Part shown: positions 20,941 through 54,700 of the stretch, in pieces
Layout of the letters: every line of letters begins with the position of its first letter
Position numbering within the stretch: the first letter of the stretch is position 1
Origin: Apostichopus japonicus
Taxonomy: Eukaryota > Echinodermata > Holothuroidea > Aspidochirotida > Stichopodidae
Reading direction: 5' to 3'
Length of the DNA stretch: 64,000 bases
NCBI RefSeq assembly: GCF_037975245.1
Contig: NC_092578.1
Span: forward strand, 2,916,001 to 2,980,000
Made by a program: the position numbers and the translations under genes
Notes under the pieces: generated by a model
Database searches by the model: none
The model's input: only the letters and a program-made list of their open reading frames with translations
What the model was told of the DNA's origin: nothing

Positions 20941-23900
20941 CCTTAGCATTGCCGTCTGTTTGATCCGTCTGGCCTTCGGTATTTTGGTCGTCTGGTCTCA
21001 TGGCTGGGAAAAACAGAACTTCCTGCAACGAAAAAAAACCAAAAAACACAAGAGGTAAATTTATATCAGCCTTGGACAAGATCACTTGCCTTATAAAAAA
21101 TGGTTACAAGATGGTGAAAGTTACCTCTGTAAATTCGATAGAAAGACAGATAATTTTTTTATCGAAGCAGCAAAGGACAAGCTGGAATTACATTTTAGAT
21201 CTAGCAAAGGGAATTACTTCATGCCAATATAAATGAATCGGTGCATCTAGCCGACAGGTGTACGAAGAGCGGCCGGCGTGCAGCTTTTCCGCACCCCGAA
21301 ACCTGGGGAAACCCAAGCGAACAGTTCATATTTGGTGCAAGAAAACCCCCAGTTTTGACCTCAGTCCCTGATTACATGAAATAAAACCATTCTGCATATT
21401 GCTTTTTTAAAACAACTCATTCTGTACAAGAGAGATCTAAAACCTCTTGAATCAATCTACTGTAAGTTTATCTATTTTTTATTTTTTCTTCCACAAACGT
21501 CAAAATTTCTGCAAACAGCTCTCAGAGCTGTGTTACTTCCCCAGTGTCATATAAAACACGTCTAGGACACAAGTCCGTCATGCCGTTATTTATGCCACAT
21601 GTACAGAAAATAAGATCATTTTGGACAGAATCCACTTTTCCTTCTGTAGCGGCTATGGAGCAAGACCGAACATAAAGATGCCAACATCTACTCCAATTTT
21701 CAAGCTCTTTTTTTTTTTTTTCATTTTTTCATTTCCTCTGACCCCGCAGTCACGTATCTGAATTACTGTTGACAATGTGTAATACTATTCACAGAGGCTG
21801 CATCCATTACCAAGAAGTTTCTCCCCTCATAGCAGATTTATTACCGCGAATCTTTCGTAATTTATCTCAGAAAGGCATCATCGTCGATTAAAATAATTTC
21901 TTGTCAGCTCTGCTGGGGTTTGTCTAAGCTACGTTATAAATAGCAAACAAGGTCACGTTAGACAGAAATTTGCCTCGCTTTTTTGTTTTTGATAGAAATT
22001 ACATTTTGCTCTGGACTGTGATACTAGCACAAAATGCTTAGCTTTTGAAGCAAAACTATAAATAACAAAACAATAGTTTGTTAAGATTCTTGGAAAGATA
22101 TTGCCTTCCAGAACGATATTGCCTTCCAGATGGCTCTCAGATTTTTTTTTCAAGTGATACATGCAAATCTGCTGACAGAGATGATATTGATTTCAAACAA
22201 AGTGTAAAAATTTTGAAATCATACTGACATCATATTTCCATGATAAAATCTGTACGACTCAAAAAGATATTTACTTTCCAATTTTACGTAGGAGCAAATT
22301 ATTTGTAGAATCTGCTTTTCATTCAAAGATAATGCAACATGAAAAAATTCCTTCTGTTACGGCCGTAGAATACATAATGTATTATCACCCTTGTACACAC
22401 AGTAACTCTTTCTAACTATAAATATTTAAATTAGATGATTTTCTCTGCACCAATTAGGAATCTGATAATGAAACAAATGACAGAGGTGCTATTTCCCCTC
22501 TCCTTTCATACGTCAGCTTGCGGTTAAATTACAAAATAAACCCATATTTTTTTGGGTGACAATTGTTAGTCAATAATATTTACAAGTACGATACTATTCA
22601 CATCTAAACCGAACTTTCTCCATTCTTTCAGATATTTCTAATAAATTGGAACTCTGTCCTTTTTCTCCTGTCACAGTTTGTGAGGAAATTACAAACTTAA
22701 TCGAACTTTATGACTTTCCAGACAATTTAAAGGGTAATAAAAAAACACATAACAGCCTTTGATGAATGATACTATAAACATCTAAGCTGATTTGTCTTTA
22801 TTCTTCAAAATGTTTTTTACAAAACTGGAATTAGAGTTTAGAATGTGTTTTTTGTTGGTTAACTGTACTAATTTGTGGAGGAATAAAAAGGAAACAAAAT
22901 AGCCACTTTATGACTTTTTATACAATTTAGAGGTCAATCAAATCTTACAAGATTTGTAAGAGATAGTACTGTTTATATCTTGCTAAAATGTTCTTCCTTT
23001 TGTCACATCTGGAGTACTGCTGTCACAGTATGCTTCCCTGAATTATCCTTGAAAATTATCTATCCCCATACCCCACCCTCCAGTGGGTGGGAGCCCATAC
23101 TCACCTTGATGTTGTTGTTATTGGTCAGAAACATGGTCAGTCTATCTATCCCCATACCCCACCCTCCAGTGGGTGGGAGCCCCTACTCACCTTGATGTTG
23201 TTGTTATCGGTCAGAAACATGGTCAGTCTATCTATCCCCATACCCCACCCTCCAGTGGGTGGGAGCCTGTACTCACCTTGATGTTGTTGTTATCGGTCAG
23301 AAACATGGTCAGTCTATCTATCCCCATACCCCACCCTCCAGTGGGTGGGAGCCCGTACTCTAGAGCGGTACAGAAGTTTTCGTCCACCAGCTGAGCCTCG
23401 TCATCTCCGGCCGCACGGTCAGCCGTCTGCATCTCAAACCTCTCCCTCTGGACGAGGGGGTCGTTCAACTCTGTGTAGGCATTCACGATCTCCTTCTTCA
23501 TCACAAAGCATTCGAAACGTTCGGTTAAGCCTTTGGTAGTACGATGCCTGAGATGCACGATTAAGGAGAAAAGTAGAGGGGGGATTACATTTAGAATTTA
23601 ATTAAACGTGGATCCCTTTCGTGAATGTCACAGATATCCTAACCGTCAGGCAGTTTGGGTTTAAATGACGGAGGACAGTTTGGGTGGTTTGGATGCCGAG
23701 ACGGTCATTGCATACTTATGTAAAGTAGTACGTTAGAAATGTTGGAAGGACCTTGATCTGCAGTGCACCCATTGATTTCTTAGTCTTAGTGTATGAAGAC
23801 TTGGTTACTAAGAAGTTACAGTTTGCTTGTTTTTATTTTCCAGAAATTTCAGAAATCATTCAACACTGGCAGGGTTAAACACAACAGACAATATCAATTT

Positions 23901-51700: not shown

Positions 51701-54700
51701 ATTTAGGTCCTCATCTTTGCATTGGTATTAATATTAGGCTTTGTAAGAATTAATCAAATATCAAACTTACAAAATAAAATCATCTCTAGGTTGTATTTCA
51801 GGCCATTGGTAACAAAGACTCTGAAAGGAAGAAAATTGTGATAATTTATCAACAAATCAATGTTATATCCTTTAAATATCAATACTCATTGAGCCATGAT
51901 ACTCCCAGTCTTAACTCCTTGTAGGCACAAATACATTTGCATCCCAACCAACAGGATATGACTACTTGAGACGGGTGTGTTCATTGGCCTTTGACAGTAG
52001 TTTGACTTCCACAGAGAAATGACTTCAAATGCGACCGGGTCAGCTTAAGAGCAAATGTAGACATTGGTCTACTCTGAGCGGATATTACTTAGCCTGTAAT
52101 TATGAACCTTAAAGATTCACACTGACCGCGGCACTTATCCGAACACAGCTATTTAGTGATGACTGAAGTGAGCCTGTGGTGCCTGATAACGAGGTCGCGG
52201 TACTTCCTGCCCCCCAGAGCCTTGTGGTGCCCAGTAACGAGGTACTCCCTGCCCCCCCCCACAGGTTTTAGGCTTCCAATCATGATAAGGAAACCAAATT
52301 TTAAAGAAAATAAGACACTGTAAGTTTGTACAGTCGATGAGTACTAAACTGAACATAAATCTGTAACATATCAAATTATCAATTAATTTTCCCTTTCTCT
52401 TCTATATTCATGTCTAATTTCTCATTGCGCTCACAAAGCCAAACATTCAAGGACGTTTATGATATACTTACACCTCCCCGAGGAATGGCAAGTTGTGTTT
52501 CAGGGGCAGTAGAGATTTGTTGACCATCGCAATTGTGTAATTTTTAAAACGGAGAATTCGGTGATAAATATCTGAGAATGAACGGAGCAAAGAAAATACC
52601 ACGATCAGCTCTTAGAAAAGAGTCCGAGGTTTTTACGTTGAAGAACAATAATAACCACATTACTACACAGCTTAATAAACTGTGACACTTCAGGTTCTTA
52701 ATTTCTTGTTTATTTGTTTGTTTCTTTGCTTCTGGCACATACTGGTAAAGTAACATTGATCAAGTCCTGCAAAACTGTGCCCATCTGATACTGGGGTATA
52801 CTTATGATAGTGTTTATTTGGTTACCATAGTAACCTCACTAGTGAGGTCTTCATTTGATGACAAACAACCAGACAACAGCATTACTATATTAATAGTTAG
52901 TAGAGTTACCTTAAGCTGTTACAAGTGTAAGCAGAATTACTTAGTTCTGTTTAGTATACTGTTACTACTAGAGTTACTTTAGTTTAATAAGTAACCTAGT
53001 TTTCTAGTGTGCTTTACCCAGTCTTGATACTAATGGTTTTAGCAAAGCTACCTTGCTCTATTACTACAGTAGTTTTATAGCACAGTTAATACCTAGTTCT
53101 ATTACTAGTGTTATGGCACAGTTACCTAGTTCTATTACTAGTGTTATATGGCACAGTTACCTAGTTCTATTACTAGTGTTTTTAGCAAAGGTACCTAGTT
53201 CTGTTACTAGTGTTTTAGCACAGTTACCTATTTCTGTTACACTTATTAAGACAGTAGTTACCTAGTTCTGTTACAAGTGTATTAGCACAGTTACCTAGTT
53301 CTGTTACTAGTGTTTTAGCATAGTTACCTATTTCTGTTACACTTATTTACACAGTAGTTACCTAGTTCTATTACTAGTGTTTTAGCATAGTTACATATTT
53401 CTGTTACACTTATTTACACAGTAGCTACCTAGTTCTATTACTAGTGTTTTAGAACAGTTACCTATTTCTGTTACACTTATTTACACAGTAGTTACCTAGT
53501 TCTATTACTAGTGTTTCAGTAGAACTTTACCTATTTCTGTTACACTTATTTACAAAGTAGTTACCTAGTTCTATTACTAGTGTTTCAGCACAGTTACCTA
53601 GTTCAGTTACTAGTGTTTAGCACAGTTACCTATTTCTGTTACACTTATTTACACAGTAGTTACCTAGTTCTATTACTAGTGTTTTAGCACAGTTACCTAT
53701 TTCTGTTACACTTATTTACACAGTAGTTACCTAGTTCTATTACTAGTGTTTCAGCAGTTACCTATTTCTGTTACACTTATTTACAAAGTAGTTACCTAGT
53801 TCTATTACTAGTGTTTCAGCACAGTTACCTAGTTCTGTTACTAGTGTTTCAGCATAGTTACCTCTTTCTGTTACACTTTTATCAAGTAATTACCTTGTTC
53901 TGTTATTTAGTGTTCTAGCACAGTACCTATTTCTGTTACACTTATTTACATAGTAATTACCTTGTTCTGTTACTAGTGTTTTAGGACAGTTACCTAGTTC
54001 TGTTAGACTTATTTACACAGTAGTTACCTATTTCTGTTACACTTATTTACATAGTAATTACCTTGTTCTGTTACTAGTGTTTTAACACAGTTACATATTT
54101 CTGTTACTAGTGTTTTTAGCACAGTTACCTATTTCTGTTAGACTGATTTACACAGTAGTTACCTATTTCTGTTAGACTGATTTACACAGTAGTCACCTAT
54201 TTCTGTTAGACTTATTTACACACTAGTTTACCTAGTTCTGTTAGACTTATTTACACAGTATTTACCTAGTTCTGTCAAGTCTGCTTTGTGTATGCACATC
54301 CTCTGCTCCTTCTGGACCTGCTGAACTCTCTTCAGAACATCATGCCAGGTAAGATTAGCAAGCTCAGACTTGAAAATAGAAGAGAAAAAACAATTCCACA
54401 AATCCATAAACTTTCGAATAAAGTGAAATTAAAGCGCCTAGTTTTGCAACAGAATATTAAAAATGTTATCAATGATGAATAAAATGTCAGGCAAGTGCAA
54501 CTCATATTTTTCAATACTCATCCTTCCTAGAATATACACAGCGAGAAATTCCATTTTTGTAATATGTGGTAATCGTCAAGCACCAATACAATCTGTTCTT
54601 TACTTAATTCTGCAAGTCACATGAGGTAATATATTCTACATTGAATTTAATTGTCATCTTTCAAAAAAAAAAAAAAAATCTGTGCTCATGACACCATCTA

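Follow-up and report, generated by a model that had tools for sequence, protein, structure and literature searches.

The window, by which we mean the whole 64-kb stretch of DNA analysed here (C18:2916001-2980000 of a 671.6-Mb genome), carries KARS and ATG9 as consecutive genes on the minus strand, with the exons of KARS running from 35578 to 20940 and those of ATG9 from 59896 to 39708; together the two genes have 66 splice junctions across ~35 kb. The exon models were obtained by tblastn with human ATG9A and KARS queries and by inspection of GT/AG signals, and a few exon ends are approximate. Echinoderm mitochondria are marked by their genetic code (AAA = Asn, ATA = Ile) and by the gene order COX1-nad4L-cox2. 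Contig C35 is mitochondrial; its COX1 has the usual residues under this code, and downstream on the same strand lie a 103-residue frame, which we take to be nad4L (from nt 1615), and what is presumably cox2 (from nt 1910), so that code and gene order identify the host as an echinoderm. Pieces of COX1 are also found on G000:C29:14745-16086 and 30842-31219, and represent either a nuclear copy or mis-sorted mitochondrial DNA.

A uniform self-BLASTN search detected 11 local duplications in the window, seven of them inside the gene bodies of KARS and ATG9, and a splice junction lies inside five of these seven (four donors and one acceptor). The seven are as follows.

23057..23360, minus strand: array of 3.5 copies of an 86-bp unit (97% matches) at the KARS exon 13 donor; the real junction lies just below 23277
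40894..41300, minus strand: array of 3-4 decayed copies of a ~109-bp unit at the ATG9 exon 19 donor; the junction lies just below 41257
46526..46865, minus strand: duplication on the donor side of ATG9 exon 13 at an offset of 168-171 bp; the junction lies just below 46762
47750..47912, minus strand: duplication of the ATG9 exon 12 acceptor at an offset of 102-103 bp; exon start 47766
52904..54275, minus strand: satellite of ~36 copies of a 33-34-bp unit at the ATG9 exon 6 donor; the junction lies just below 54266
55062..55353, minus strand: ATG9 intron 5 array, 22-bp unit, starting 18 bp past the exon 5 donor and counted as intronic
58229..58847, minus strand: ATG9 intron 1 array, ~48-bp unit (TRF: 94, 142, 236), containing no junction and counted as intronic

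Elsewhere in the window, two arrays outside KARS and ATG9 lie ~200 bp apart, one at 15295-15412 (22-bp unit, 5.4 copies, 98%) and one at 15608-16143 (21-bp unit, 25 copies). An array of 4-5 copies of a ~158-bp unit occupies 38706-39455, immediately downstream of the ATG9 stop codon, and may belong to the 3' UTR.

Judging from self-BLASTN and the exon models, all five junction-containing tandem repeats that the initial annotation had placed in KARS and ATG9 are real; its ATG9 exon 20 is the 19th exon in the present annotation, in which one small exon may be missed. The 86-bp repeat at the KARS exon 13 donor was found as described, with a unit made up of ~79 exonic bases and GTGAGTA, and AAG/GTGAGTA (motif AAGGTGAGTA; the slash marks the junction) occurs three times in the array. 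The unit of the ATG9 exon 6 satellite holds the donor and, before it, the final ~10 bases of the exon (ACAGAACTAG followed across the junction by GTAA or a variant), so that 37 AGGT fall within 1,372 bp, and a 701-bp piece of this satellite gave no match beyond its own locus in a search that skips very common words. The ATG9 exon 12 duplication holds the pyrimidine tract, the AG, and 17 exonic bases. At ATG9 exon 13, the 168-bp duplication exists, but its description as a whole-exon repeat was mistaken: the aligned copy begins ~6 nt inside the exon, without the acceptor, and ~20 nt are missing internally, indicating a donor-side duplication. Copy identity is 72-90% for ATG9 exons 12, 13, and 19 (self-BLASTN). 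Because every unit consists of exonic and intronic bases of its own site, and because no match to the ATG9 exon 6 satellite turned up at another locus, the arrays appear to have been born at the splice junctions where they now lie, as had been proposed.

The initial annotation had also reasoned that exon edges should rarely be overlapped since exons make up less than 12 percent of these genes. This argument ignores array length and exon number and does not hold, because the arrays are long and 66 junctions are crowded into ~35 kb: when whole array spans are placed at random, 3.49 of the seven arrays are expected to contain a junction against five observed (P for five or more, 0.19). Array-span placement was itself rejected as the sole null, since it turns derived copies into targets, and was retained as one of two. 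The other, in which the founding unit alone is placed, is stricter because later-arising copies are not targets; it gave 1.05-1.26 expected against five of seven (P = 0.0007-0.0024), a post hoc result. Since the window had been chosen because of its repeats, a sample from outside it was needed.

For this sample, exons were located with Pfam models and taken with 450-bp flanks, overlapping stretches being merged. After exclusion of six window rows and 26 others, most of them with at least two internal stops, 278 of 310 Pfam rows were used; these gave 218 regions, from which a seeded draw took 200, and 180 of these were analysed (226,545 bases, 226 HMM exon hits, and 452 predicted edges). Junctions were predicted from the hit ends, with scores above 3 for 137 of 226 donors and above 1 for 206 of 226 acceptors, and an array was assigned to a junction when it covered at least 4 bases on either side of the predicted site. 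The choice of regions, the way arrays were searched for, and the count had been fixed before the data were seen, and the founder-unit null, the score thresholds, the zone tests, and the truncation correction were devised later. The search returned 58 arrays over the threshold; four simple-sequence arrays (L065, L072, L140, and L177), including L072, which had touched an acceptor, were removed before the count, leaving 54.

Fourteen of these 54 arrays contain a predicted junction, a donor in nine (L026, L058, L080, L101, L119, L141, L148, L161, and L175) and an acceptor in five (L025, L043, L048, L087, and L103), which corresponds to 3.1% of the 452 exon edges (95% interval 1.9-5.1%). L175, with 4 exonic bases, is borderline and was counted among them; L146, an exon copy with no aligned junction, and L001 and L021, which start in the intron 2.5 and 9.5 bp after the donor, were counted as junction-free. 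None of the 54 sample arrays lies wholly inside a predicted exon. The sample examples are as clean as those in the window: L058 repeats CAGGTAAA 11 times, and L048 has three repeats of an acceptor together with ~69 exonic bases. Units reach 220 bp. L058 (C19:21630442) and L148 (C15:7116090) lie in SNF2-family genes, and in both the donor array coincides with the conserved SGTPIQ/TGTPIQ motif; their splice sites and units differ (44 vs ~50 bp), and they are thus apparently separate events.

The observed 14 falls between the chance guess set in advance (4-8) and the 25-35 expected at the window's rate. The window is the richer in junction arrays when arrays are compared (5/7 vs 14/54, Fisher P 0.026), and per junction the comparison is 5/66 vs 14/452 (P 0.081). 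For the sample, the founder-unit null predicts 11.5 junction arrays if the shortest unit is placed and 14.5 if the BLAST offset is used, against 14 observed (P = 0.23 and 0.62, respectively). When the 27 arrays (of 54) truncated at the edge of a region, five of them junction arrays, are each counted as half, the expectation becomes 8.7 or 10.9 (P = 0.06 or 0.21), and for window and sample together, 19 junction arrays stand against 12.6-15.7 (P 0.055-0.24). The interpretation offered in the initial annotation was only partly upheld, in that the pattern recurs in other genes but an excess over chance is not established (14/54, P 0.06-0.62).

These figures bear on the proposal that mutation tied to splice junctions, through R-loops, co-transcriptional breaks, or microhomology of GTGAG-type donors, overproduces junction-spanning duplications, a proposal that we consider unlikely. 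It draws on the excess in the window under the founder-unit null and on the behaviour of the stronger arrays. Junction arrays score above other arrays (Mann-Whitney P 0.001), and junction arrays number 14 of 44 at 60 bits or more (7.4-9.6 expected, P 0.02-0.11), 13 of 34 at 100 bits or more (6.1-7.8 expected, P 0.01-0.06), and 10 of 20 at 200 bits or more (2.9-4.3 expected, P 0.01 or less). Part of this strong-array excess is attributable to truncation of deeper intronic arrays at region ends and to the junction copy being held by selection. For arrays starting within 110 bp of an exon, P was 0.19-0.48 (all arrays), 0.06-0.23 (at least 100 bits), and 0.04-0.17 (at least 200 bits), and within 200 bp it was 0.05-0.19, 0.007-0.04, and 0.001-0.013, respectively. 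Judging from the score-threshold and zone results, a junction excess of up to about twofold is possible. Donors also outnumber acceptors in window and sample combined (13 vs 6, P 0.17), and GAGTAC, the exonic start of the KARS array, occurs again within the KARS exon 13 donor.

Against junction-tied mutation, the independent sample as a whole is without significant excess, and on the intron side of its donors and acceptors no peak of array cover is seen at the junctions. Within 10 bp of donors, cover amounts to 4.8%, compared with ~9-10% at 100-300 bp, and within 10 bp of acceptors to 2.2%, compared with ~9-10% at 200-400 bp; because founder placement also predicts such a fall toward the junction, this is evidence only against a peak. 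Nor is the array density at random positions significantly lower. In twenty random 3.3-kb stretches (66 kb), a small control that includes long satellites (L186 and L198) and a large repeat (L191), 15 non-simple arrays were found when the stretches were cut into 1.1-kb pieces (0.227/kb) and 11 when they were left uncut (0.167/kb), compared with 0.238/kb around exons (no significant difference; P 1.0 and 0.37, respectively). An array whose offset is 164 bp takes up all of L186 (C5:17176804-17180103), and L198 (C15:26108986-26112285) contains a 1.3-kb array with a 65-bp offset. Finally, the predicted GTGAG microhomology at unit boundaries finds a counterpart in the shared GAGTAC of KARS, but by eye the units of most of the other donor arrays inspected end away from the donor. 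An excess at junctions, or a mechanism tied to them, is thus not established, and, the power of these tests being limited, there may be an enrichment of about twofold.

The anatomy of the arrays and their recurrence in independent genes are shown by these data, as is a frequency compatible with random founder placement. We favour, as the probable explanation, that the junction arrays are 'mirages' (local tandem duplications across a splice junction) in an echinoderm genome where short tandem duplications are widespread (about one per 4-6 kb of sampled DNA), with no need for any special attraction to splice sites. Local duplication would arise by slippage or by end joining on short homologies, with unequal exchange expanding the products later, and would sometimes happen to cover an exon-intron edge. 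Where a donor is covered, the exon-proximal copy would remain the splice site and the extra copies would turn intronic; where an acceptor is covered, the exon-proximal copy would likewise serve. The extra copies could then drift or expand as a minisatellite. Such junction duplications would be tolerated because the spare copies remain intronic.

Selection could instead retain junction arrays because they buffer splicing or offer alternative splice sites, which seems to us improbable. The donor motif is indeed intact in several copies (counting the real site, 3 in KARS, 11 in L058, 4 in L148, 5 in L026, 4 in L141, and 4 in L119), but homogenisation of the arrays would have the same effect, and junction arrays are in no clear excess. 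In 11 of the 14 junction arrays of the sample the BLAST offset is not a multiple of three, close to the chance expectation of two thirds (~9), and at ATG9 exon 13 the copy is without its acceptor and part of the exon; both observations fit passive tolerance rather than use. That the tandem copies are false products of assembly is very improbable: the arrays are known here from assembled sequence alone, but the copies of ATG9 exons 12, 13, and 19 differ by many substitutions, arrays occur on many contigs, and like structures have been described in amphioxus in several papers.

The junction arrays extend this class of structure from lancelets to an echinoderm and attach a rate to it, at 14 of 452 sampled exon edges. 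A literature search, judged by titles and the openings of abstracts, yielded no report of mirage-like arrays in an echinoderm among the papers listed, and the name 'mirage' appeared there in lancelets alone. Each junction array is a natural experiment in spliceosomal choice between neighbouring sites that are almost identical, and such arrays may provide material from which new splice sites form. The outcome of cluster tests of this kind also differs according to what is randomised, array spans or founder units. A broader reading, which we regard as doubtful, is that junction-spanning duplications are over-produced or retained in both echinoderms and lancelets (~1.3- to 2-fold, most strongly in long arrays and perhaps at donors), that a few percent of splice sites lie in arrays, and that the process keeps supplying deuterostomes with new splice sites and introns.

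Canestro 2002 is reportedly a source on the mirages of amphioxus. In the accounts available for this animal, mirages are minisatellite-like tandem duplications across intron-exon boundaries, found in Adh3, the globin genes BflGb6 and BflGb9, PGBD5, and TnC; they affect both 5' and 3' boundaries, have units of 10 to ~160 bp, and carry AG/GT signals in many but not all copies (PMC3087553; PMC3902484). RT-PCR in amphioxus is described as indicating that mirages seem not to disturb splicing (PMC3087553). The arrays described here resemble them in that the repeat unit holds exonic and intronic bases across the junction (five arrays in the window and 14 in the sample) and in that both kinds of boundary are affected (four donors and one acceptor in the window; nine donors and five acceptors in the sample). 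They differ in that their host is an echinoderm and not a lancelet and in that units reach greater lengths; a rate and a comparison with chance are given here, for arrays known from the sequence of one haplotype alone.

Local tandem duplication involving splice signals is also shared with intron gain by AGGT tandem duplication, as described for ATP2A1 and for potato RdRp, where the duplicate covers intron-exon structure (PMC4974935). Unlike those cases, the arrays counted here copy existing junctions, no new intron was seen in the DNA of the inspected cases, and exon-internal arrays were absent from the sample. Tandem exon duplication gives rise to mutually exclusive exons. The ATG9 exon 13 copy recalls this process in containing most of an exon, but, with its acceptor and ~20 nt missing, it does not have the complete pair of splice sites that, together with an open frame, would mark a duplicated exon.
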